43,757 nucleotides of DNA from a virus: positions 1-43,757 of the IMG/VR virus record IMGVR_UViG_3300035698_013396. One strand, given 5' to 3'. Each line of letters starts with the position of its first letter. Within the stretch, counting starts at the first letter, position 1. Below are positions 2,929 through 43,706 of the stretch, piece by piece. The notes under the pieces are model-generated. The model made no database searches. It was not told where the DNA came from and saw nothing but the letters and a program-made list of their open reading frames with translations. The position numbers and the translations under genes are program-made.

Positions 2929-5151
2929 CTAAAATACCAAATTTTCCCAGTTATCATTGCTATTCGTTAACGACTTGGCGTTTTTATTAAAATAAATCCA
3001 TCGTCCTGTAAAATTGCGAGGATTAGTATTTGTGACAATTCCACCGAATAGCTTATGACCTTTTTTATTCTGTTCGTTGATATACGTATTAAGGCCATCG
3101 ATTTTAGGGCCTGCCACTTGCCGGGTCAAACCTGATTTAGTATCAAAAAGACCTGTAGAGCCGTCTTTCATGTGGACTATAAAATCAACATAAAAGGGTT
3201 TTTTATCGCCATTCTCTTGATAAGGTACCGCAAAGAAAACCGCATCTCGATCGCCATTTTTAAACCACCAATGAATCTGATTCTGTTTCTCAAGGAAATT
3301 TACATACGCCATCTCGATTTTGGATGTTTCGTTACAGAAAAACGGTTGCATTATTGATTTTAGCTTATGATTAATCTGTGAATAAGCCGAGCTATAACTT
3401 ATACTGTCCGGCACGTCCCAACTGTCGTCATAATCAAGCTCTTTTCCCCGCTTTGAAACATCCTCCAGATACTTTGTCTTAGCCTGATCAATGATGTTGA
3501 CAAAATGCTGAATGTTCTCCTCGCTTAGTACCATATTAACGATCGCTTCTTGAACATCCTCGTATTTCATGTCCATCGTCTGGTCAAAAAAATAGTAAAT
3601 GGCTTCTTTCAACCTTCCAATTGAGCGATCCTCTGGATAAAACGGCGTAAGATTTTTTCTGACGAAATAGTCGAAATACTTTTGCAGGTCAAAGCCTGTT
3701 ATCTTAATATCTTTACTACCGGCTATTTTTTGCCCGACTAGAGCGTCAATACTCTCAGCCTTAAAATCTGAGATAAACTTCACGTTTAGCCCTTTGGATT
3801 TCTTTTTTATCCTCTTATCAAGACCGTAGGCTTCGGCTTCTCGAGAGAAAATCTTAATAAAAAGCGGCGAAAGCCTTGTTTTCTCACGATGTCGCTTCGA
3901 ATGGCATGACAGCAGGTCCAAAGATGGATAATCGCCACGGCGACGTGCCGTGTGAATCGTGATATAATCTTTGGCGATATCCTCTTGGATTTCTATATCG
4001 TCCAAATTCGTAAAGATGTATCCGCAATTAATGATTTCGTTCGCATAGTGGCCATAATCAGGCTCGGGCATCCGCATAATCCTGCCGATCGTCTGAATCG
4101 AAAAGACAATGCTCTTCCAGTCACGGAAAAGCACTAATATGTGAGCCCGGGGACAATCCCAGCCAAGAGCAAGAGCCTGTTTGAAGATTAAGATTTCCGC
4201 TTCGCTGTCAAACCTTGAAATATTCTCCAAGTTTTCGTGATGCCCCGAAAGATGAATTGCCAGCTTGCCATTTTCGGTAGCAATCTTGTGCTTGTCCTTT
4301 AAGATCGCAATAACCTTGTTTTTGATAACATCCTCAAGCGATGTCTTTCTGTCCGGCAACTGCACAAGCACCAGAGGATTGATATCTACTTTTTCTTTTG
4401 CGTATGCTTCCTTCAGTGCTTTTCTTTTTTTTAGGGCAAGCTCAATGACCAATTCTTCGGACTGTTTGCTAAGTTGGCTTTGGATTTTTGTATCTTTGAG
4501 AATATTGTCAAACTCGGGATTAAGAATAACGAGCTTTTTAATCATGCCTTCAACCTTTACATCCTCTAATTGAACAGAAACTCTTTCATCGGCAAGGCCC
4601 TCTAAAGTGGGAGTGGCGGAAACTTCGACTGTCAGCTTAGGGCCGATATCCCTGATAAGTTTTTGGGATATTTCACTCGTAGCGTGATGATGACTTTCAT
4701 CAATGATAAGAATTATTGTCCGTCCTTCTTCCTTGGTCTGGGTGATAACATTTGACAGATTGTTATCCTGTTCATTATCTCGGATGTAGATATTGCCTTC
4801 CTTGTTAATACTTTCCCAGTTAAAGAAAAGAATCTCGTTTTGATCAATCCTCTTGTTATCCAAGTCCTCGAAGAACGAACACCGCAGGGCCTGACTCGGC
4901 TCATAATAATGATCCAGCTTATTTTTACTCTGCTCGTGCAATTGCCGTGGAGCCGTCCAGATTAATGAAAGCGGAGATTTGACTTCTTTATCCTCGCATA
5001 ACTGTTTCAAAAACTCTGCCATCATTATAGTCTTACCTGAGCCAGTAGGAGCCTTGAATATCAATTTTTTATTATCAGCATAGCTCAACAGCTTTTTGGC
5101 TTTGCCCAACAGTTCATCAATAGCGTTTATTTGATAGTTTTTAAGCCGCAT
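2929..5151 (-). CDS. res: Type III-like restriction helicase-nuclease (Res)
   Basis: A 740-aa SF2 translocase with a nuclease end. Walker A is APTGSGKT at residues 34-41, the DExH box is DESH at 151-154, and helicase motif VI is in the QTIGRIMRMPEP region. The C-terminal 80 residues hold a PD-(D/E)xK-like arrangement (YVDFIV, then FDTKSG), as in type III restriction subunits. It is shorter than typical EcoP-type Res proteins of about 970 aa, mainly in the middle. Its ATG overlaps the mod stop as TAATG, so the two are translationally coupled. Expected role: ATP-dependent translocation and cleavage of DNA lacking Mod methylation, in complex with the neighbouring Mod. Family is sure; subtype is less sure because of the short length and the two extra genes downstream. 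Confidence 0.92.
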   Translation of the reverse strand: MRLKNYQINAIDELLGKAKKLLSYADNKKLIFKAPTGSGKTIMMAEFLKQLCEDKEVKSPLSLIWTAPRQLHEQSKNKLDHYYEPSQALRCSFFEDLDNKRIDQNEILFFNWESINKEGNIYIRDNEQDNNLSNVITQTKEEGRTIILIIDESHHHATSEISQKLIRDIGPKLTVEVSATPTLEGLADERVSVQLEDVKVEGMIKKLVILNPEFDNILKDTKIQSQLSKQSEELVIELALKKRKALKEAYAKEKVDINPLVLVQLPDRKTSLEDVIKNKVIAILKDKHKIATENGKLAIHLSGHHENLENISRFDSEAEILIFKQALALGWDCPRAHILVLFRDWKSIVFSIQTIGRIMRMPEPDYGHYANEIINCGYIFTNLDDIEIQEDIAKDYITIHTARRRGDYPSLDLLSCHSKRHREKTRLSPLFIKIFSREAEAYGLDKRIKKKSKGLNVKFISDFKAESIDALVGQKIAGSKDIKITGFDLQKYFDYFVRKNLTPFYPEDRSIGRLKEAIYYFFDQTMDMKYEDVQEAIVNMVLSEENIQHFVNIIDQAKTKYLEDVSKRGKELDYDDSWDVPDSISYSSAYSQINHKLKSIMQPFFCNETSKIEMAYVNFLEKQNQIHWWFKNGDRDAVFFAVPYQENGDKKPFYVDFIVHMKDGSTGLFDTKSGLTRQVAGPKIDGLNTYINEQNKKGHKLFGGIVTNTNPRNFTGRWIYFNKNAKSLTNSNDNWENLVF

Positions 5152-6842
5152 TATTTAAAAATTCTCCTGTATACCCTTAATATTACTTCTGGAATAGGCG
5201 ACAGCTTAACCTTTTGCTTAACGTCGTCAAATTCATCTTCGAAAGAATCGTCGCCAAGCGAGAACACATAAACACTGAATTTACCTTTCAGCTTAGCAAT
5301 GGCTTCCTTGAAATCCGGGATCGCCATCTGATCGAAAATTATACCAGTATAGTGATTTGTGTTCTTGTAAATTTTAAAGACTTTTTTGTTAGTTACTTTT
5401 TGAAACGTTCCTTCCTTAAGACAAAGCATTGCCGTTGCCATCTCCGTCAGTTTCTTTTTGTTTTTATCGGTAGGATCTGCATCGACAAATTCTGTACGGA
5501 AATATTTAAGATTTCCGCCAAGGCCATCAACTTTCTGGCCTTTAGAATTTTTGTATCCATTCATGACTTTCTTCACTCGAGGATAGCAAACATCTGAACA
5601 GATATCATTTTCGTTATTTGTGCAAATAATAAATTGCCGATTCCCGTCATCTTCTTCGTTAAGCTCCAAAACAGCTTGGGCTGTTGTTCCAGAACCTGCA
5701 AAAAAATCTACAACAACTGCATTTTTATTTGTGCTTGCTACTTTTATACACTCTGCTACAGCATGCGGAGATTTAGGATATTGGAAAGCTTCTCTTACAC
5801 ACAAAATCTTATCTAATAATTGTGTCCCGTGTTCGCTAGCCGAAAACTTTGATTCATACCAAATACTTTCAGGTGGTTCACCATCTAATCCGCCCCTAAA
5901 TTTGAAATAAACCTGATCCCCATATGATGTTTTTTTATACCATAGGTCACCTCTGGCATACATTTCATCGATAACATCTTTGCCCCGTCGCCAAATTCTC
6001 TTTTGGTCATTAACGTCGATAGGCAATATCTTTATGGGGTACTTGTTTCTTGAGCTTATCTTTCCAGTCTTAGGATCATAATAAATTGGGTAGTATCTAT
6101 TAGACTTCTTTCCTTTTGAATTAGTAGCAAGGCTATCGACACCTTGCTTTCTAAGATTGACTGGTAAATACCACGATCCATCTTCATCCTTTTTGTAGTT
6201 ATGCGTTTTGTCTTCCGGTGCAACCTCTAATTTCTTAATTTTCGCTTTTATTCCTCTACCATAAAATATAGCATACTCATGTATCAATGAAACCTTTCGC
6301 TCTGTTTTACGACCTTTTGGGTTGTTCCTAATGACCACTGTTCCTAGGTGATTATTTTCTCCAAAAATTTTATCCATTAAACACCACAGGCGTGGGGCCT
6401 CATTATCATCAATCGTTACACAGATAATGCCGTCATTAGCTAATAAATCTTTTGCCAATTTGAGTCTTTTCTCTATAAAAGAAAGCCATTTAGAATGCCT
6501 GTATGGATCCGATGCATCAACAAAGGCATTATTGTATTTCCAATCTCTGGCTCCAGTATTATATGGAGGATCGATATAAATTACATCGACTTTTTTCCCG
6601 TGAGTATAACTGAGAACAGCAAGGGCATGATAGTTATCTCCTTCAATTAAAATATTAGCCGAACCATTTTTCTCGGTAGAAATCTCCTTGCCTTCGGCTT
6701 CAACTAAAACAGGTAATTTTTCTTTACAAAGTCCAGCTACTTCTTCAGGCTTATCATCCCAAATCAAGCCGTAGGTAGTTTTTTTAAGCTGTTTAATCTC
6801 TGCAATAAGTTTTTCTTTTGACCAACCAACATATTTACTCAT
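5151..6842 (-). CDS. mod: Type III-like DNA adenine methyltransferase (Mod)
   Basis: A 563-aa beta-class N6-adenine methyltransferase. The catalytic motif DPPYNTG lies at residues 91-97, well before the AdoMet-binding motif FAGSGTT at 381-387, the order seen in type III Mod subunits. Residues of about 190-350 between them are the likely target-recognition region. The N-terminus (EKLIAEIKQLKK) is helical. The gene starts 2 bp after the HTH gene and its stop overlaps the res start. Expected role: methylate the recognition sequence on host DNA and provide sequence specificity to Res. It is somewhat short for Mod, and nothing suggests inactivation because both motifs are intact. Confidence 0.93.
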   Translation of the reverse strand: MSKYVGWSKEKLIAEIKQLKKTTYGLIWDDKPEEVAGLCKEKLPVLVEAEGKEISTEKNGSANILIEGDNYHALAVLSYTHGKKVDVIYIDPPYNTGARDWKYNNAFVDASDPYRHSKWLSFIEKRLKLAKDLLANDGIICVTIDDNEAPRLWCLMDKIFGENNHLGTVVIRNNPKGRKTERKVSLIHEYAIFYGRGIKAKIKKLEVAPEDKTHNYKKDEDGSWYLPVNLRKQGVDSLATNSKGKKSNRYYPIYYDPKTGKISSRNKYPIKILPIDVNDQKRIWRRGKDVIDEMYARGDLWYKKTSYGDQVYFKFRGGLDGEPPESIWYESKFSASEHGTQLLDKILCVREAFQYPKSPHAVAECIKVASTNKNAVVVDFFAGSGTTAQAVLELNEEDDGNRQFIICTNNENDICSDVCYPRVKKVMNGYKNSKGQKVDGLGGNLKYFRTEFVDADPTDKNKKKLTEMATAMLCLKEGTFQKVTNKKVFKIYKNTNHYTGIIFDQMAIPDFKEAIAKLKGKFSVYVFSLGDDSFEDEFDDVKQKVKLSPIPEVILRVYRRIFK

Positions 6843-26225: not shown

Positions 26226-27062
26226 TCAAGTCCTTGCTATTGTGGCGATTTCGTCATCAGAATTATAAGCCAAAGTCAAGACTGCAACCGTGGTGCCGCC
26301 AGCCCCACCAGTTTTATAAGTCACGGTTTCGATTTCTCCCTGGCCATCGCCGGAAGATACATACGTCAAAGCGATATAATCGTAAGCCGGGATTTCAAAG
26401 CCGATTAACTTTCTCAACTCAGTTAAAACAGCGCTGTCGCTTCCGCCCCCGACATAAACATTCCCAGCCCGATAAAATTTCTCGCCATCTTCCGTTACCA
26501 GCCTGACCGGTATCGCTTCTTTAGGCTTTATGTTTTTAATAAGGCTCTTAAAAATAGTTGTCTTGACCTGCTTAAAAATACTCTCGTTCGAATCTTTGGC
26601 GAATTTGAACAATTTTCTGAAATCAAACTCTTTATACCAGAGAGGCTTTTTGATGCTTACTTCCCCAGGGTGTTTTTCGGGTTTTATCTCTTTTAAATTA
26701 GATACCCTTATCTCCTTAGGGTGTTCGTGTTTGAAATCTTCTGTATTGGATATTCTTACCTCTCCGGCAGGGGGCGGGAAATTGCTGACAAACACCTTAA
26801 ACTCTTTGCTAAATACTTGCTGGTATTTGTCCAATGTTTCTGCCAATCCGCGTATCTCATCCTTGATATCTTTAAATGCCTTGGAGTCTGACTGTCCTTC
26901 TTTTATCAACACATAAACCTTGCTGATGATACTGACGATGTCTTTCTGCCTATCCAAAGACTGAAGCAGAAAAATATTCCTCTCCAAATTATCGTCCTGT
27001 GTTTCGGTGCCTAATAATTTGCTTATTTTGTTTCTTTCTAAGAGGGCGTCTTTCTTATCCAT
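26226..27062 (-). CDS. Coiled-coil virion protein with distal beta domain
   Basis: A 278-aa protein. The N-terminal half is helical and charged (QSDSKAFKDIKDEIRGLAET). Short repeats of the form GEVRISNTEDF, KEIRVSNLKEI, GEVSIKKP lie near the middle. The end has AIPVRLVTEDGEKFYRAGN and a Gly-rich beta tail (YKTGGAGGTTVAVLTLAYN). Such proteins are found next to portals and may be head-fibre bases. It overlaps the portal stop by 8 bp. Function unassigned. Confidence 0.65.
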   Translation of the reverse strand: MDKKDALLERNKISKLLGTETQDDNLERNIFLLQSLDRQKDIVSIISKVYVLIKEGQSDSKAFKDIKDEIRGLAETLDKYQQVFSKEFKVFVSNFPPPAGEVRISNTEDFKHEHPKEIRVSNLKEIKPEKHPGEVSIKKPLWYKEFDFRKLFKFAKDSNESIFKQVKTTIFKSLIKNIKPKEAIPVRLVTEDGEKFYRAGNVYVGGGSDSAVLTELRKLIGFEIPAYDYIALTYVSSGDGQGEIETVTYKTGGAGGTTVAVLTLAYNSDDEIATIART

Positions 27063-28800
27063 TGATCAAAACCTTTTCGAGTTTGGTTTTTATATTAGTC
27101 AGTTCCTTTTTTAAGATGCCGTTGTCATTCCCCATCTTCGCAAGATCACCGCTCAATTTTTCGTTCTTCCTCGTAACTTCTTCGGCGTCTTTCAATATCT
27201 CTCGAATATCTTCTGCTTGCTTGGCTTCTTCTTTTTTCTCTTCTTCATCTTCTGCGGGAGTTTTTGAGTTGGTGGTTGTTTCCGGAAGATCAAGCTCTTT
27301 CCGTTTCTGTTCTTCTCTTGCCCTTTGCTCTAAAATCTCTTCCCAGTCCTTGCCTTGTCCAGCTGCTTCGTCAGCCAAACTTGAAATGTTTCCTGCGATA
27401 GCCTCTTTAGATGCCTTAACCTCTTTAAGCGGATCCACCCAGGACCAGCCAGGAGCTATCCATCTCGCCCTAACCCAATCAAGCCGCTTCTCATAAAAAT
27501 TATTAGCCTTCAGTTCTCCTTTTAAATAAGCCTCTTCCAAAAGCATCTCCCAAACAGGCTGACAGAGTTTCTGAGCTATCCATTCCTGCCTGACCTTAAA
27601 ATATCTTCTGGCCTCTAATAACGCGGCTCTTGCGCTTGAATAATTTGTCTTTGAAAAGTCTTTTGCAACTAACTCATAAGGAAGGCCCAGTGCCGCAGAT
27701 ATTGCCTTTAAGATCCTGTCGACAAACGGCTCGAATGTCGCGCTTGGCCTCTGCGGATTGAATGACGTGATAGATTCACCCGGCATAAGGTGTTTAATCA
27801 TCCCCGGTTCTAAAGATTCAAGCATCTGCCCAGCTGCATTCTTCTCATATGCAGAATTAACTGCTACATCCATCGATGACTCGGAAGTTATGAAAAGCGA
27901 GAAGCATGCCGAAATACGTGCGGCAACAAGTTCTGCCTCGGCATACTCGGCCAAATCTTTGAAATAAGTCAATACGGGAGCAAAGAAGGGGACACCTCTG
28001 GTCTGACCGGCCCGTGAAACATAATACAAATGAAAAATATTTTTTCTGCCATATTCGCCTTTAGCCTGAATCTCTACGTATTGTCTTGCTTCTTCTCTAG
28101 TCCTATGGTTGATATCTCCAGGATGTGTCTTTTGAATGAAATAAGAAATCGGCTCGCCCTTTTCGCCAATCTTTACGCCAGACCTGATTGATTTATCGCT
28201 TCTCTTATCGGATGGCGTGTTAAGCCTGTCCGACTCTATCAACTGCAGGGCCAATGAATACGGCCTGCCTTTATCTTTCAACATCAATGGAACTATTATC
28301 GCCTCGCCGTTTTCAAGGATCTGTCTATCCACCAGCTGTTGAATTTCGTAGAAGTCCATACGTTCTCCTGCATCGGCATACGGCGACCAACGTTTCCATA
28401 TTCTCTCGGTTTTTTTCTGGAAGTTCTTTGCCGACTTCTCGCTTATGCCAAGGGAATCCTTATCCATCCTGCACTGAGGCCTGATGCCCGTTCCAATGAC
28501 ATTCGTGGTCATAGTAGAAGTAATCCCGGAAGCGTGGGCGTCATTTCTATTTAGATCACGGCTACGTTCCCGAATATCAGCTAACTCAGGAAGCAAATCC
28601 TGATCTGCCGAACCCCCTCCGGGAAGCCAAGAAGAACGCAGGCGATCCCTGCTCGCTCCTTTGTAAGAGCCGAACTTATGCGAAACATTAATTGCCTCCC
28701 GATACATCCTTCGTTTAAACCCAGCCTTAGGGGAGAAAAACGAAATGACGTTGTCTATCCCGGACGACAACTTTTCTGAGATTTTCTTTTTATTTTTCAT
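27055..28800 (-). CDS. Portal protein (lambda gpB family)
   Basis: A 581-aa portal. Typical lambda-family features include SADQDLLPELADIRERSRDL, NDAHASGITSTMTTNVIGTG, and the RAGQTRGVPFFAPVL and FSKTNYSSARAALLEARRYF stretches. The C-terminus is acidic and coiled (EDEEEKKEEAKQAEDIREIL), longer than the core. It forms the dodecameric DNA channel at the head vertex and binds terminase. Its start overlaps the gpW-like stop by 4 bp. Confidence 0.93.
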   Translation of the reverse strand: MKNKKKISEKLSSGIDNVISFFSPKAGFKRRMYREAINVSHKFGSYKGASRDRLRSSWLPGGGSADQDLLPELADIRERSRDLNRNDAHASGITSTMTTNVIGTGIRPQCRMDKDSLGISEKSAKNFQKKTERIWKRWSPYADAGERMDFYEIQQLVDRQILENGEAIIVPLMLKDKGRPYSLALQLIESDRLNTPSDKRSDKSIRSGVKIGEKGEPISYFIQKTHPGDINHRTREEARQYVEIQAKGEYGRKNIFHLYYVSRAGQTRGVPFFAPVLTYFKDLAEYAEAELVAARISACFSLFITSESSMDVAVNSAYEKNAAGQMLESLEPGMIKHLMPGESITSFNPQRPSATFEPFVDRILKAISAALGLPYELVAKDFSKTNYSSARAALLEARRYFKVRQEWIAQKLCQPVWEMLLEEAYLKGELKANNFYEKRLDWVRARWIAPGWSWVDPLKEVKASKEAIAGNISSLADEAAGQGKDWEEILEQRAREEQKRKELDLPETTTNSKTPAEDEEEKKEEAKQAEDIREILKDAEEVTRKNEKLSGDLAKMGNDNGILKKELTNIKTKLEKVLING

Positions 28801-29009: not shown

Positions 29010-29034
29010 GTAAAACTCCTTTTCGATTCCCAAT

Positions 29035-29073
29035 AAAAAAACCCGAAACCGCCCGTGCACGGTTATCGGGTTT
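29035..29073 (-). terminator. Strong rho-independent terminator ahead of the structural operon
   Basis: Bases 29039-29046 pair with 29066-29073 (8 bp). After one bulged base, 29047-29051 pair with 29060-29064 (5 bp), with an 8-base loop. The minus strand then reads TTTTTTT. It ends 26 bases before the gpW start, so transcripts entering from the right need antitermination or another promoter. Confidence 0.85.
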
Positions 29074-29127
29074 TTATTAACTATTGGGTGCGCTTGAGGT
29101 GGCCAAACCCCTTGCGCAAAGTTCTAT
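29035..29127 (-). ncRNA. Candidate short structured RNA or leader RNA upstream of gpW
   Basis: A possible promoter at 29134-29162 would start a transcript near 29127 that ends at the terminator at 29035, about 93 bases. It contains a hairpin at 29089-29118: TGCGC, AA, GGGG, loop, CCTC, AA, GCGCA on the minus strand, with a symmetric internal loop. No open reading frame is apparent. It could be a small RNA, or a paused leader ahead of late genes comparable to the lambda pR'-tR' leader. Confidence 0.35.
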
Positions 29128-29133
29128 AACTCT

Positions 29134-29162
29134 ATATTACTCGCAATATATATATTTTTCAA
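29134..29162 (-). promoter_or_regulatory. Possible promoter for the short RNA/late leader
   Basis: TTGAAA (29162-29157), a 17-base spacer rich in AT, and TAATAT (29139-29134) on the minus strand. The -35 is 5 of 6 and the -10 is 4 of 6 against the consensus. It is supported mainly by the hairpin and terminator placed downstream. Confidence 0.4.
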
Positions 29163-29190
29163 TATAGTCGTTACTACAAAATAGTAAAAA

Positions 29191-29218
29191 TAAAAAACCC
29201 ACTAATAAGCTAGTGGGT
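29191..29218 (-). terminator. Rho-independent terminator after the broken small gene
   Basis: ACCCACTA (29197-29204) pairs perfectly with TAGTGGGT (29211-29218) around a 6-base loop. The minus strand continues TTTTTTA. It follows the stop codon at 29248 of a small decayed gene by 30 bases, suggesting that gene was once a separate transcript. Confidence 0.8.
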
Positions 29219-29247
29219 ATATTTATAAAAACAAAAAATATATTGGA

Positions 29248-29365
29248 TTAGTCTACTTGGTGTGCAGTCAAAAAGAGGGCTTTTTCTAGAGCGTTGAAAA
29301 AATCTTGATATAGCTCTGGAGCGTCAATGGGCTTTATTCCAAACTACCTCCGATCCCGGCCCCAT
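29248..29365 (-). pseudogene. Small gene broken by a one-base frameshift
   Basis: On the minus strand, the frame from ATG 29365 reads MGPGSEVVWNK and then stops. The frame shifted by one base continues PIDAPELYQDFFNALEKALF and ends LTAHQVD at the TAA at 29248. The join (WNK-PIDAPELY) is natural if a single extra G near 29325 is removed. Open frame also continues upstream of the ATG to a TAG near 29400 (PAFGKISSES). Function unknown. It could be real decay, a programmed +1 shift or an assembly error. Too short for confident calling. Confidence 0.4.
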
Positions 29366-29410
29366 ACTTTCAGATGAAATTTTACCGAATGCGGGCTACC
29401 TTTAAAACTA

Positions 29411-29437
29411 AAAGCGCCTCCCAAAAAGAGGCGCTTT
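29411..29437 (-). terminator. Terminator of the outer-membrane protein gene
   Basis: Perfect 10-bp inverted repeat AAAGCGCCTC/GAGGCGCTTT with a 7-base loop, followed on the minus strand by TTTTAG and preceded by a matching A-run, so it can act in both directions. It lies 30 bp after the stop of the outer-membrane gene and insulates that cargo gene from the phage transcripts. Confidence 0.85.
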
Positions 29438-29466
29438 TAAGAAACTTGATAAATACTTAACCTTGT

Positions 29467-30231
29467 TTAAAACCTGTAATTCGCACTAACTGTGAAGGCG
29501 GTCTCATCAATAAATCTACCTTCTACACCAATGGAAAGATTTTTGGTAGGAAGAAAATCACAGCCAACGAAGATGCCAACTACGCCATCGCTATTTATAT
29601 CGTCTGTTGTGTAAGTTGTGCCTGAAATTGTAGCTTGCATCGATGCTTCAACATCAGTATATTTAATTCCACCATATGGAACAAATTGTCCTATTTCCTT
29701 AGATATTCCTAAAGCTACCTGCCATTCTTTATATTCAATACTAGCTTCTGATATACCTACATCGCCTGGCGAAAAACTAACACCATTAAGTGTAATTTTA
29801 TCAATATCTGGTTCTGTTTGGCGATATCGACCGTCCAAACCAACTCTGATGCCATTCTCAAACTCATGAAGAAAAACAGTTGCTCCTATTCCCCAGGCAA
29901 ATGCACTTTTCGTCTCATAGTTTAAATCCACTCCACTATATTTTTCGGAAAATTCTCCATTAGCGGCACCTAATAAAACATATGGTTCTACTCTATCTGC
30001 AAGAACATAGGATATCTTGCCCGCATACCAATTAAGGTTCTCTACAGTCACATCCTCGTCAGAAACATCTAAATCTCTTTCGGTAACAAAATCTAATTCA
30101 GTTCCGACTTTGAAAGGTGTATCGCCTTCTTCCAGTATTGGTTTGGCAGGATTTCCTATAGGCGCTGCATTAGCCACAGAGTAAGCACTCAAAAATATCG
30201 TTACTAATCCAAGTAACCATAACTTTTTCAT
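29467..30231 (-). CDS. Prophage-encoded outer-membrane beta-barrel protein (moron)
   Basis: A 254-aa protein. Residues 1-22 are a signal peptide (KKLWLLGLVTIFLSAYSVANA, then APIG). The mature part is a series of alternating amphipathic strands (ENLNWYAGKISYVLADRVEP, GIRVGLDGRYRQTEPD) ending in VSANYRF, the terminal aromatic signature of BAM-inserted barrels. GAGGTG ribosome site. It lies between terminase and head genes with its own promoter and terminator, the hallmark of a lysogenic-conversion cargo gene, analogous to lambda Lom. Possible roles: receptor masking against superinfection, adhesion or surface variation. The promoter has a G10 tract, so expression is probably phase-variable. Confidence 0.85.
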   Translation of the reverse strand: MKKLWLLGLVTIFLSAYSVANAAPIGNPAKPILEEGDTPFKVGTELDFVTERDLDVSDEDVTVENLNWYAGKISYVLADRVEPYVLLGAANGEFSEKYSGVDLNYETKSAFAWGIGATVFLHEFENGIRVGLDGRYRQTEPDIDKITLNGVSFSPGDVGISEASIEYKEWQVALGISKEIGQFVPYGGIKYTDVEASMQATISGTTYTTDDINSDGVVGIFVGCDFLPTKNLSIGVEGRFIDETAFTVSANYRF

Positions 30232-30366
30232 TTCTCACCTCACATTTTTTTGGTTAAAACTAAAACGAATTATCTTTACTCTTTATTAGGATAGGATGAC
30301 CTTCTACCTCCTTTCTATCCAAAGTTTAAAAAGCAACTCTTCTTTTTATTGTTTATAATTATTACT

Positions 30367-30395
30367 ATTTTATACCCCCCCCCCAGTTTTGTCAA
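30367..30395 (-). promoter_or_regulatory. Probable phase-variable promoter with G10 tract in the spacer
   Basis: Minus strand: TTGACA (30395-30390), AAACT, ten G (30384-30375), then TATAAAAT. The -10 is either TATAAA (15-base spacer) or TAAAAT (17-base spacer). A change of one G moves the spacer toward or away from 17. This is the design of the Neisseria porA promoter. It sits about 145 bp upstream of the outer-membrane gene. The leader between also has GGATAG...CTATCC flanking an AAAGGAGGT sequence (about 30290-30325) of unknown meaning. Confidence 0.8.
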
Positions 30396-30437
30396 GTTTT
30401 TTTGCGGCCAGCAAATCAAGGCAAACATCTATCCAAA

Positions 30438-30683
30438 CTAAACACCCTCAGCCTCCACGCTCTTAAAATTCTTCCCACACTTCCTACAGACATGATACCT
30501 GACCGGCAGATGACTCGAATAACATTTTACGTTTTTACTTCTGCATCTCGGACACCGCAGGGGAATAAAAGTAACACCATAATCTTGACTGTTGTTTGCA
30601 GGTCTGCCGGGTGATTTTCTTTCAAAATTATTGCTGTTGTCATTTCTTAACCAATTGCTTTTTCTTTCAAGCCATTTTCCCAT
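30438..30683 (-). CDS. Zinc-ribbon protein next to terminase
   Basis: An 81-aa basic protein with two CxxC pairs, RCPRCRSKNVKC and HVCRKCGKNF, forming a zinc ribbon at about residues 44-74. It begins directly after the terminase stop (TAAATG). Small zinc-ribbon proteins of this kind often follow phage terminase genes or act as Com-like translational regulators. I cannot say which. The N-terminus is Asn/Ser-rich and probably disordered. Confidence 0.72.
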   Translation of the reverse strand: MGKWLERKSNWLRNDNSNNFERKSPGRPANNSQDYGVTFIPLRCPRCRSKNVKCYSSHLPVRYHVCRKCGKNFKSVEAEGV

Positions 30684-32561
30684 TTAAAGCCAGTTTCCTT
30701 CACGTTTTTTTATCCAATTTCCTCGACTGGTATCTTGGGCGACTATGCGCTGATGTATTTTAACTGATTCGTCTTTTCTGATATTTAACGCCCGGATAAT
30801 ATCCGCCGCCGCAACCGCATATACCTCAGCATCAAGATAATGATTTGCGACTGCGGCTCTTTTCTTCTGCCAGACTTCTTTAGCCTTGCCGGTGTTTCTG
30901 TTTCTAACTAAAACCTTATGTTCTGAGGTAAACTGATTTAAATATTCCTCAGTTGGGTTTTTGAAGATATGCCACTTGCAGGGATCCTTAGTAGTCACCA
31001 AGCGGGTAATCTTGTCTTTGTACTGACTGACATTTAAATTCCATAAGACTAAACCGCTTTTGATAACACTGCCGGTTCTTGAGTTAATGTCGATTTTTGA
31101 CGCACGATAGAAGCGGCCGCCTGTGATTTCTTCCTGACCTTTAATAGCTTTTGTTTTATCCCGCCACTGACGGCAGAATCTATACACCTCATCAGTGCGA
31201 TATCCTGAGTCAATACAGCTCATGTATACCGGCAAAGTCTCATTGTCTGATAACCGTTTGTATTCCGTATTAAAAAGAACATCCACAATATCTTCCCAGT
31301 ACTCAACACGATCCGCTCTGATAAGCCATGACTCTTCATAATATCCCCATCCGCGGATCGCATAATAAAAATGGTCTTTCTGCACATCAATGCCGGCTGT
31401 TAACACAATCACATCATCAGGCACAAGCCCTTCGTCATAATCGCAGGATAAAATCTTGATCTTATCAACTGTAGTTTCCTCGATTTTTTCTTCCCAGACT
31501 TCGGCAAGCCATGAGTTAACAAAATTCATTAAAAGTTCAATATAATCTTTTGACTTTAAAAACTCACTTGCTATATCACTCCAAGTAAGCCAGGGGGAAT
31601 AGAGGGAGTTAATCCAATAACCCTGGTGCTTGCTTTTAATTACATTTCCCGAAACTTCTCCGTAATCATCAATCTCCGCATCATGCGGAACCCATTTTCC
31701 CTGCAACAGAATTTTGTTTTTCTGATAATCTTTTATCTGCTTACTGCAGTGGCAACACTCATACCATGCAAGCCTCTCATTCTTAATGCGTTCTGCAGAC
31801 TTTTCTTTTTTAGGCCACTTAATCTGACCGAACACTAAAACCTGATATTTACCACAATGAGGACAAGGGACGTAGAAGCGTCTTTTGTCTGACTTTTCAT
31901 ATTCCCTAAAAATATATCCGTCTCTTATTGTCGGCGTGGATACTTTGATAGTTTTTTTATTCCAAAAAGTCTTTTGACGTTCACTTGCTAACTTAATCGG
32001 ATCAGCTTCACGGCCTGAAAACTTAGGATATTTATCAATCTCATCTAAGAAGAGATATCGGATAGGCCGAGAGGCTAGATCCGCCGGTGAGTTTGATCCG
32101 GCAAAATATAAAATCATTCTATCCAAACGATATTCCAGGCGTGTTATATCATCTGAAAGCTTCGGCAGGTGTTTCTGCAGAGCATGAGAGCCTTCAATCA
32201 TAGGCAGAACCCGGTTGCAGGAAACGCTTCTTGCGTCGCTCTCACGAGGCAGAACCACAAGCGTCGGACCCGGATCCTGATCAATAATAAAACCCAGCAT
32301 ATTAAACATAGCCTCTGTTTTGCCGACCTGCGAAGCGGCCATAACAGTTACTTCCTCAACATATGGGTCGGTGAAGGCATCCATAACGCCTCTCATATAG
32401 GGAGTTCTGCTTGTTTTCCACCGGCCCGGCTCAGCTGAAGTAACCGGATTAAGCACACGATAACGATCAGCCCACTGGCTGACTGTTATCTTTTCCGGCC
32501 GTTTCCACGCTTGCCTCTCTTGATGTAGCCAAATTTCCCTGTCCTGTTTCTTTGTGAGCAT
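30684..32561 (-). CDS. terL: Terminase large subunit (lambda gpA family)
   Basis: About 625 aa from ATG 32561, preceded by AGGAGA; an upstream GTG at 32594 adds 11 residues and also has a weak site. Motifs: N-terminal KITVSQWADRYR, deviant Walker A AASQVGKTE near residue 75, Walker B YLFLDEIDKYP near 172, a zinc-ribbon-like CPHC...CCHC insert, and RNase H-type nuclease acidic residues in AGIDVQKD, CIDSGYRTDEV and HYLDAEVYA. It cuts and pumps phage DNA into the prohead. It overlaps the small subunit by 95 bp. GpA-type terminases are usually cos-cutting. Confidence 0.93.
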   Translation of the reverse strand: MLTKKQDREIWLHQERQAWKRPEKITVSQWADRYRVLNPVTSAEPGRWKTSRTPYMRGVMDAFTDPYVEEVTVMAASQVGKTEAMFNMLGFIIDQDPGPTLVVLPRESDARSVSCNRVLPMIEGSHALQKHLPKLSDDITRLEYRLDRMILYFAGSNSPADLASRPIRYLFLDEIDKYPKFSGREADPIKLASERQKTFWNKKTIKVSTPTIRDGYIFREYEKSDKRRFYVPCPHCGKYQVLVFGQIKWPKKEKSAERIKNERLAWYECCHCSKQIKDYQKNKILLQGKWVPHDAEIDDYGEVSGNVIKSKHQGYWINSLYSPWLTWSDIASEFLKSKDYIELLMNFVNSWLAEVWEEKIEETTVDKIKILSCDYDEGLVPDDVIVLTAGIDVQKDHFYYAIRGWGYYEESWLIRADRVEYWEDIVDVLFNTEYKRLSDNETLPVYMSCIDSGYRTDEVYRFCRQWRDKTKAIKGQEEITGGRFYRASKIDINSRTGSVIKSGLVLWNLNVSQYKDKITRLVTTKDPCKWHIFKNPTEEYLNQFTSEHKVLVRNRNTGKAKEVWQKKRAAVANHYLDAEVYAVAAADIIRALNIRKDESVKIHQRIVAQDTSRGNWIKKREGNWL

Positions 32562-33144
32562 TTCTTTCTCCTGCAAACTCATCAATGATTTCACTTATCG
32601 CCTCATACAACTCAACTTCAATCTCCCTGGGTTCTTTCATTGCCAGAAGCGGAGCAAGCCTTGTCGGCAGGGCAAGAAAAGCCCGCTTAACCGCAATGAT
32701 CCTTGCAATTCTTCCTTTTTCAACCTCGTCCCGTGGCAGAAGCTCTCCTGTGACTCTTTTAAGTTCCAGCTCAAGCAAAGATGCTTTATATTTCCTAAGC
32801 TTGATCTCCCAATAAATCTTGCCTTCGATTTCTTCATTAGTATTGCCAGTTTTTCCGTCATACCATTTCTTGATTTCTTCCAAATCGTAAAATCCGTTTT
32901 TCGTAACAGGCATGCCGTCACGCTTCCATCTGTATACCGTGCGCCAATTAACTTCCATAATCTTGGCAACTTCCTCAATTGTCTTTACAACAGTGTCTCC
33001 AAGCGGTTCGGCTTCAAAATCTTCAAGTTCTTTTATTTCCTGTTTAGACAGAGCAGTACCGCCGTGCAGTTTTTCGATTAAATGCAGGTATCGTTTCTTG
33101 CGGGCAATCTCCGCTAAATTCTGGTTCTGCTTCTGTTCCGTCAC
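32467..33144 (-). CDS. terS: Terminase small subunit (Nu1-like)
   Basis: A 225-aa protein. It starts at GTG 33144, overlapping the previous stop as GTGA. The winged-helix DNA-binding part is at about residues 55-95 (TIEEVAKIMEVNWRTVYRWK, then FYDLEEIKKWYDG). A coiled region follows (YKASLLELELKRVTGELLPR), ending in EISEIIDEF and a flexible tail. This layout matches Nu1-type small subunits that recognise the packaging site and recruit the large subunit. Confidence 0.88.
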   Translation of the reverse strand: MTEQKQNQNLAEIARKKRYLHLIEKLHGGTALSKQEIKELEDFEAEPLGDTVVKTIEEVAKIMEVNWRTVYRWKRDGMPVTKNGFYDLEEIKKWYDGKTGNTNEEIEGKIYWEIKLRKYKASLLELELKRVTGELLPRDEVEKGRIARIIAVKRAFLALPTRLAPLLAMKEPREIEVELYEAISEIIDEFAGERNAHKETGQGNLATSREASVETAGKDNSQPVG

Positions 33145-41974: not shown

Positions 41975-43672
41975 ATGATAAGACCCAATAAAAATACCGA
42001 AAAAAAGCGGTTCGTGATCTACACACGATGCTCGACTGATGATCAGTCCCAGGGCGAATACACTACACTGGATGCCCAAGCCCACCATTGCCAGAATATG
42101 CTCGACGCATTCGGATACGAACGTGCCGATTTCGGCAAAAAGGGAATTATCAACGAGGACGGCTTTTCAGGAAAAGACCTCAACCGCCCCGGCATACAAT
42201 CGATCCTGAAAAGCGTAAACAAAGAAAAACGATTTGACGGCATCATTTTCTTCCGCCTTGACCGCCTCACTAGGAATCCACGAGACTTATATGCGCTCAT
42301 AGACTTATTCAAAGCAAAGGACATTGATTTTATTTCAGTGCGTGAGAACCTTGACAGCTCAACAGCCATAGGCCGAGTAGTGATCGGCATACTCGGGCTT
42401 CTATCAGCATTTGAGCGTGAACTTACCGGCGAACGTGTAAAGGCATCAGCGATCGCCAGAGTGCGCCAAGGCAAATGGGTAGGCGGAATTGTGCCTTACG
42501 GATACAAACTTATCAACGACGGTCAGCAACTGCCCAACGGCAGACAGCCCCATAAGATTGTCATTGATGAAGAAAAGGGACCGAAATTAAGAATTATCTG
42601 GGAAATGGCTTCTGACAATAAGTCTCTTATGGCGATAGGCCACGAGCTGTCAAAGCGGGGCATTAGAACAGCCGGCGGAAAAGAATGGAGAAAACAAACG
42701 ATCTCAACTATCGTTAAAAACAATTTTTACAAGGGATATTTAAAATACAAAGAAGAGTTCCACAAAGGCAAGCATCCTGCGCTTGTGGATGAAAAGCTGT
42801 GGGATAAAGCGAATAGGATTTTGTCAGGGAAACTGCCCGGACATCGTTTTTCAAGGAAGCCGAGAGAATACAGCTACCTGCTGGCCGGACTGCTTAAATG
42901 CGGGAAATGCGGAAGTCACTATGCCTGCACGTTTGCCAAAGGCTACTCAGGCAAAAAGTTTTTCTATTATATCTGCGGAAGGTCTAAACAAGGATTGGGA
43001 TGCGACGCATCACGAATATCTGCCACTGCCTTTGACAACGCAATTATTGATTATTTTAAGCGGGCATCAAAAGATCAGGACATTATCGTGAAGGCAATCG
43101 GAGATGCAATATTAGACAGTCAAATTAAACTGGATAAATTAGAAAAGATGATTAAAGAGGCTGAAGGTAAGCTGACAGCTACCCGGCATGAAGCAGATAA
43201 ACTACTTGAGCTTGCCATGAACAACAAGGTGTCTCAAGGCAATACCTACAAATCTAAAATGGCGAAACTTGATGAAGAGATAACCAAGCTTGAAGATGAG
43301 ATAGAAAAGCTACAAGCTAAAAAGAACGTGGCTCAAATGTCTGCGAACTCAGGACAGTTCCTGCACTCAAACCTCAAGTTTGCCATGCAATACCTCGATA
43401 AGGCCCCGCCTGAAGCCCAGAAGAGCCTGCTGACAGCCCTTATCAAAGAGATCGTACTTCATGAAGACAATATCGAAATCAAGATGTTCATCGACAAACC
43501 CGCCGAACAAACCATCATAAGCGACCTGCCAGTCACCCGATCCAAAGACATGCCTGAAAATGGAAAACGCCCCACAGAAAACTGTGAGGCGTTAACCGCA
43601 AAGGCAAGTAGTTTGCCTGAGCGTCCATTATGGCTCCCCCGCGAGGACTCGAACCTCGGACCTGGTGGTTAA
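41975..43672 (+). CDS. Large serine recombinase (phage integrase)
   Basis: A 565-aa protein with AAAAGGAGAG upstream. Resolvase catalytic domain with nucleophile Ser20 (YTRCSTDDQ) and FRLDRLTRNPRDLY. Recombinase domain follows (GGIVPYGYKL). The zinc ribbon KCGKCGSHY...GLGCD lies near 305-345, then a long coiled coil (ITKLEDEIEKLQAKKNVAQM). It integrates and excises the element. The last 28 or so residues (from RPTENCEALTAKASS) are encoded by a hairpin and by the antisense of the tRNA-Asn gene, and the TAA lies opposite the anticodon loop. They are probably a by-product of the integration site, and the excised form may end differently. Confidence 0.93.
   Translation: MIRPNKNTEKKRFVIYTRCSTDDQSQGEYTTLDAQAHHCQNMLDAFGYERADFGKKGIINEDGFSGKDLNRPGIQSILKSVNKEKRFDGIIFFRLDRLTRNPRDLYALIDLFKAKDIDFISVRENLDSSTAIGRVVIGILGLLSAFERELTGERVKASAIARVRQGKWVGGIVPYGYKLINDGQQLPNGRQPHKIVIDEEKGPKLRIIWEMASDNKSLMAIGHELSKRGIRTAGGKEWRKQTISTIVKNNFYKGYLKYKEEFHKGKHPALVDEKLWDKANRILSGKLPGHRFSRKPREYSYLLAGLLKCGKCGSHYACTFAKGYSGKKFFYYICGRSKQGLGCDASRISATAFDNAIIDYFKRASKDQDIIVKAIGDAILDSQIKLDKLEKMIKEAEGKLTATRHEADKLLELAMNNKVSQGNTYKSKMAKLDEEITKLEDEIEKLQAKKNVAQMSANSGQFLHSNLKFAMQYLDKAPPEAQKSLLTALIKEIVLHEDNIEIKMFIDKPAEQTIISDLPVTRSKDMPENGKRPTENCEALTAKASSLPERPLWLPREDSNLGPGG
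43554..43593 (-). terminator. Terminator of the tRNA-Asn transcript, inside the recombinase 3' end
   Basis: AACGCCCCACAG (43566-43577) pairs with CTGTGAGGCGTT (43582-43593) with one mismatch and a 4-base loop. The minus strand continues TTTTCCATTTTC. It follows the 3' end of the minus-strand tRNA by about 40 bp. If it is host DNA, the integration junction is to its left. Confidence 0.7.
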
Positions 43673-43706
43673 CAGCCACTCGCTCTACCAACTGAGCTAC
43701 GGGGGA
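43631..43706 (-). tRNA. tRNA-Asn (anticodon GTT), CCA encoded
   Basis: Complete cloverleaf on the minus strand: acceptor TCCCCCG/CGGGGGA, D arm GCTC...GAGC, anticodon stem AGTGG/CCACC (one G-C/A-C imperfect end pair), loop CTGTTAA with anticodon GTT at 43673-43671, T arm CGAGG-TTCGAGT-CCTCG, discriminator G and an encoded CCA at 43633-43631. 76 bases. The recombinase frame enters from the opposite strand and stops at 43672. The gene is intact, so integration did not destroy it. Confidence 0.95.

Follow-up and report, generated by a model that had tools for sequence, protein, structure and literature searches.

A gene for an outer-membrane beta-barrel protein, preceded by a promoter-like sequence with ten consecutive G residues in its spacer, lies between late genes of the phage described here (Table 1). 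The window, that is, the whole stretch of DNA analyzed, is an IMG/VR virus record of 43,757 nucleotides, and its genes include a gpA-type terminase, a lambda-type portal, a J-like tail fiber, and a tape measure. A gene for a large serine recombinase overlaps tRNA-Asn at its 3′ end, and this overlap likely marks an attachment site. The sequence-only reading that preceded this analysis had called the DNA a prophage. The virus record itself, the recombinase gene beside the tRNA gene, and the existence of integrated relatives agree with that description, while the prophage state as such is something that we infer. A further open reading frame at 1-678 resembles a recombinase C terminus by eye and has no Pfam match. 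The window also contains a Type III restriction-modification pair (Mod and Res; 2929-6842, minus strand), neither gene of which has a repeat tract, followed by two open reading frames of no assigned function at 668-2886. The phage-encoded sigma factor is perhaps used for the late genes.

TABLE 1 Features of the barrel-gene insert and related elements of the window
Feature	Position	Strand	Remarks
Terminase large subunit	30684-32594		Precedes 81-aa gene
Late gene upstream of insert, 81-aa CxxC protein	30438-30683	minus	Follows terminase large subunit
Whole moron-like insert	29192-30437	minus	About 1.25 kb; promoter, leader, barrel gene, terminators
Sigma-70-like promoter, G10 in spacer	30367-30395	minus	Sequence and promoter scan
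-35 TTGACA	30395-30390	minus	Exact search
AAACT	30389-30385	minus	Exact search
G10 tract	30384-30375	minus	Exact search
TATAAAAT (-10 region)	30374-30367	minus	Exact search
-10 read as TAAAAT	30372-30367	minus	Spacer 17 bp
Alternative -10 TATAAA	30374-30369	minus	Spacer 15 bp
Leader element AAAGGAGGT	30306-30314	minus	83 nt before ATG; no start codon behind element
Outer-membrane beta-barrel protein gene	29467-30231	minus	254 aa; signal peptide, C-terminal Phe
Terminator-like hairpin AAAAGCGCCTC-TTTTTGG-GAGGCGCTTTT	29406-29438	minus	Directly 3′ of barrel gene
Second terminator-like hairpin	29197-29218	minus	Near insert 3′ end; terminator scan
Late gene downstream of insert, 87 aa	28797-29060	minus	gpW-like by position
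Lambda-type portal	27055-28800		Comes after 87-aa gene
Sigma-70 family factor, phage encoded	40893-41465	minus	TIGR02937, 2.4e-16
Large serine recombinase	41975-43672	plus	Ccr/XisF-like
tRNA-Asn	43631-43706	minus	Only Rfam gathering-score match

Among 285 Omnitrophota genomes, 18 contained homologues of the terminase with 52 to 86% identity, and the late genes stand in the same order there. Thus, the host is very probably an omnitrophote, and the phage of this record is very probably one that infects Omnitrophota. Integrated relatives (prophages) of this phage were found in Omnitrophota genomes, and no relatives were found in INPHARED.

The 81-aa gene and its gpW-like neighbor are separated by about 1.38 kb in the window versus about 130 to 190 bp in most relatives, which comprised related phages and prophages in Omnitrophota genomes. 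Homology with these relatives ends within 30450-30637, in the last part of the 81-aa gene, and returns at about 29191. The G+C content of the insert is 37%, compared with 43% for the record. The hairpin directly behind the barrel gene was read in the sequence and is absent from the list of the terminator scan; an inverted self-match at 29409-29439 coincides with it. Because extra DNA separates genes that are adjacent in related phages, with its own predicted promoter and terminators and a lower G+C content, the insert has the anatomy of a moron. The description of the barrel gene as phage cargo was therefore borne out: it is a host-derived insert between late genes that adjoin each other in relatives. 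A few more distant phages hold other, unrelated inserts in the same gap, indicating that it is a cargo site. In two of the more distant phages (L046, 5060-8980; L059, 6371-11045), the gap holds several kilobases of exported-protein genes with signal peptides and LamG-like or repetitive domains, as judged by eye.

A conserved intergenic element was observed between the 81-aa and gpW-like genes (window 29030-29190, minus strand) in at least 15 related phages, including L007, L010, L012, L013, L015, L030, and L031. It contains the palindrome TTACCAGATTCTGGTAA, carries in many phages a promoter-like TTGAAA/TAATAT pair, and then runs for about 100 nt to a terminator hairpin enclosed by an invariant CCCAATA...TATTGGG. 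Two-sided changes occur at 10 of 31 predicted pairs. The element, which had no Rfam match, is a possible phage small RNA or attenuator. In the neighborhood of the insert, the Rfam scan gave nothing at the gathering score except the tRNA.

The minus strand reads TTGACA-AAACT-GGGGGGGGGG-TATAAAAT at 30395-30367, and an exact search reproduced this order of elements as first reported. With TAAAAT as the -10 element, 11 of 12 positions agree with the sigma-70 consensus, and this is the strongest sigma-70-like promoter of the whole record. The spacer reaches the optimal 17 bp exactly at G10, so that by its sequence any one-base change would leave the optimum. A homopolymeric tract thus lies between the -35 and -10 elements of a recognizable promoter, and the earlier comparison with porA holds at this level. 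The tract ends 144 bp before the barrel-gene ATG (30231), close to the 145 bp originally estimated.

The tract is the sole G/C run of at least 8 in the window (43.7 kb), the longest other run being 7, and a Markov null predicts 0.043 G/C runs of at least 10 per window. Only 0.38% of window positions are inside the spacer of a promoter with at most one mismatch per hexamer, and 0.034% if TTGACA must be exact. Moreover, no other exact-TTGACA promoter in the window has a -10 element with at most one mismatch at 17 bp. The coincidence of the G10 tract with a promoter therefore has a probability of about 1e-4 or less and is beyond chance, although the test was post hoc.

The barrel protein matched two Pfam profiles, Chlam_OMP (5.8e-15; 55.3 bits with a cutoff of 20) and OMP_b-brl (1.6e-10; 41.8 bits with a cutoff of 28.7), the best Chlam_OMP stretch spanning just residues 159 to 193. 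Its family profile matched the major outer membrane porin PDB 9oq7 (5.7e-28). The AlphaFold2 model (pLDDT 85.8) shows a barrel with about 10 long strands behind a signal helix; together with the terminal Phe, it agrees with the signal peptide and beta-barrel noted at first sight. The nearest solved folds are OmpT-type barrels with a TM score of about 0.54. This score denotes a similar barrel only, and the OmpT/Pla match does not imply protease activity. The profile matches above the curated cutoffs and the modeled barrel place the protein in the MOMP-like/OMP beta-barrel family, and by sequence and model it is a distant relative of chlamydial MOMP and a predicted porin.

Barrel homologues with 89%, 78%, and 87% identity, the last of them partial, are encoded in three Omnitrophota assemblies, and the family is present in 97 of 285 Omnitrophota genomes. 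In the tree, the phage copy and two chromosomal copies form a clade with 100/100 support, and the rest of the family is otherwise chromosomal. No homologue was found in INPHARED, nor in any other contig of IMG/VR except a near-duplicate record. These comparisons indicate that the phage gene is an intact, host-derived copy of an Omnitrophota chromosomal family. The dN/dS ratios of the phage gene against two host homologues were 0.15 and 0.11, which indicates purifying selection and thus a working protein.

The barrel genes of two chromosomal loci (L003 and L004) were compared with the phage copy. The block common to the phage and L003 extends from 30315 to 29366; it includes the leader element and the hairpin behind the gene and excludes the promoter. 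The leader element is retained in both loci and resembles the mRNA-stabilizing "STAB-SD" of Bacillus cry genes. Chromosomal barrel homologues have TTGACA-type promoters with spacers of 16 to 17 bp, and the promoter type of the phage copy therefore fits the host. In L003 and L004, the promoter is of the TTGAC type, and its 17-bp spacer has no run of G residues (L004 was read by eye). Both barrel genes adjoin a divergent helix-turn-helix gene, and the L003 spacer is a palindrome, likely an operator judging from its sequence. At both loci (L003, 4603-5765; L004, upstream of 5001), an ORF6N gene is also nearby; the L003 locus is near a serine recombinase gene as well, and the L004 locus is located among housekeeping genes.

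Poly-G in host barrel promoters was considered and rejected: no G run of at least 7 was found upstream of the more distant chromosomal homologues, and the G6 runs found upstream of host homologues are mostly Shine-Dalgarno-like leader elements. Since chromosomal homologues have ordinary promoters without a long G run, only the phage copy has the G10 tract, and since the block conserved with L003 starts at the leader (30315), the phage either acquired the G10 promoter separately or changed an existing one. A regulated host promoter has thus been replaced in the phage by a G10-spacer promoter without a linked regulator. This contrast between L003 or L004 and the phage is the most telling comparison for a changed regulatory mode, and the change may have been adaptive.

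Poly-G promoters gave 3 matches versus 1 control in the 285 Omnitrophota genomes, which is chance level, and a general host use of such promoters was rejected. G10 runs are also very rare in host-type genomes (2 in about 14 Mb from 10 genomes). Both results indicate that the host does not make general use of poly-G switching. One Omnitrophota genome, a member of the family, has two diverged copies of a promoter whose spacer contains seven G residues (L119, 86-113; L120, about 1501-1528); both retain G7, which counts against the contingency-promoter reading proposed below, and at least one copy stands ahead of a type IV pilin-like gene. Among viral contigs in general, 6 poly-G promoters were found versus 1 with a scrambled pattern and 4 with a C tract, and some of the matches fall inside coding sequence. 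The most porA-like viral match, TTGACA-ATA-G11-TATAAT in an unrelated phage (L077, 2320-2344, minus strand), precedes a gene flanked by a tail gene and the tape measure. It was rejected as a surface-protein switch: the gene is a weak match to the Mu-F head protein. The relatives of L077 are too distant for a tract comparison.

We also searched for the mismatch repair protein MutS. MutS_V was found in none of four near genomes, among them the three that encode close homologues of the phage barrel. In the family of genome G001, it was found in 10 of 105 genomes. RecA was present in 102 of these 105 genomes (92 over the cutoff), so genome incompleteness does not account for the missing MutS. Across the phylum, MutS_V was detected in 42 of 117 sampled Omnitrophota genomes and is thus absent from roughly two-thirds. 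The host lineage therefore probably lacks MutS repair, as measured in relatives that are partial assemblies and from which the phage's own host could differ. In Neisseria, loss of mismatch repair raises the switching of mononucleotide tracts 100- to 1,000-fold (PMC3639595).

The best explanation, which we hold with moderate confidence, is that the phage carries a porin gene as a moron behind a contingency promoter in the porA/tp0126 mold, present at the predicted "on" length. A MOMP-like porin gene of the host would have entered the late block of a temperate lambda-like Omnitrophota phage as a moron. Because the gene has its own consensus promoter, it should be readable by the main RNA polymerase of the host in the lysogen, with no need of the late program. 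Slippage at the G10 tract during replication would alter the distance between the -35 and -10 elements and thereby expression. G10, with 17 bp, is predicted to be on; G9 and G11 would be reduced, G8 or fewer would be largely off, and at G12 the alternative TATAAA would be placed at 17 bp. If MutS is missing from the host lineage, as is probable, the tract would be unusually unstable, and lysogen populations would be mixed for the extra porin. Promoter activity, slippage, switching, and benefit are parts of this model that we infer. By analogy with the 11G, 10G, and 9G forms of porA and with tp0126, control of the porin may be on/off or graded, and by analogy with phage-borne outer-membrane proteins, the porin might mask receptors; uptake and adhesion are other possible roles. 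The stronger form of the proposal, in which a phage with a captured porin under a G-tract switch exploits a MutS-less host and its cargo brings about very rapid surface diversification among lysogens, is tentative, and we doubt it somewhat more than we credit it.

The leading alternative is a fixed constitutive promoter, with the G run as a neutral quirk of the spacer and the porin made in every lysogen. The spacer sequence of sigma-70 promoters is weakly constrained, such promoters are not enriched in Omnitrophota, and the tract is G10 in both records. A flank-anchored IMG/VR scan, which would have shown copies with other tract lengths, gave a single other copy of the insert, L082, also with G10. 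However, L082 is almost identical to the window over 8.7 kb, differing by end-of-contig substitutions and one indel outside the insert, and the two records say little about variability because they are probably from the same population and not independent. The rarity of G10 in these genomes and the drift expected in MutS-less hosts make its long-term fixation without selection unlikely. We consider a fixed promoter rather improbable, albeit deserving of serious weight. Transcription of the porin gene mainly in lytic growth, with its own promoter minor and the protein altering the cell or its debris at lysis, would fit the shared orientation of the barrel gene with the terminase and portal genes and the sigma factor encoded by the phage. 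But the near-consensus promoter of the gene, and the terminator-like hairpins close behind it that would block late transcription, make this reading quite unlikely. Homopolymers are error-prone and both records are metagenome assemblies, but it is very improbable that assembly or sequencing error produced the motif or its tract length, as the insert is identical at every base in the two records and a one-G error would leave the motif in place.

Most known promoter contingency loci are chromosomal and belong to host-adapted pathogens. If the contingency-promoter reading is true, phages can bring stochastic surface switching to free-living Omnitrophota that do not otherwise use it, and the locus would allow phage-host relations to be tested in a little-known phylum with almost no cultured members.

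The Neisseria meningitidis porA promoter has a poly-G tract of similar length between the -35 and -10 elements of a porin gene; its expression is high with 11G, medium with 10G, and low with 9G, with 2-fold and 13-fold drops, and its on-state has a 17-bp spacer, as at G10 here (PMC3639595). In contrast to the phage-borne locus from an uncultured phylum, porA is chromosomal in a pathogen, and its variants have been demonstrated. Treponema pallidum tp0126, an OmpW homologue, is likewise an outer-membrane barrel gene whose promoter has poly-G in its spacer, with an optimum of 17 bp (PMC7864442). However, tp0126 is chromosomal, and its variation and activity were measured in reporters. By these features, the phage promoter may be assigned to the porA/tp0126 class as an incomplete member. 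Outer-membrane morons of phages include lambda lom and the lc/nmpC porin of phage PA-2, which are similarly prophage-borne genes apart from phage functions. To our knowledge, neither has a poly-G promoter, and the barrel described here, unlike theirs, belongs to an Omnitrophota MOMP-like family. Campylobacter phages reportedly carry hypermutable poly-G tracts (Sorensen et al., 2021, as cited in PMC10877375) and so share with our phage a phage-carried poly-G sequence of the contingency type. Those tracts reportedly lie in coding sequences of virion genes, whereas the tract described here is in the promoter of a host-surface cargo gene. Phage outer-membrane morons and phage poly-G tracts are each already known; among open-access papers, no example was found of the two combined, with poly-G in the promoter of a barrel gene carried by an Omnitrophota phage.
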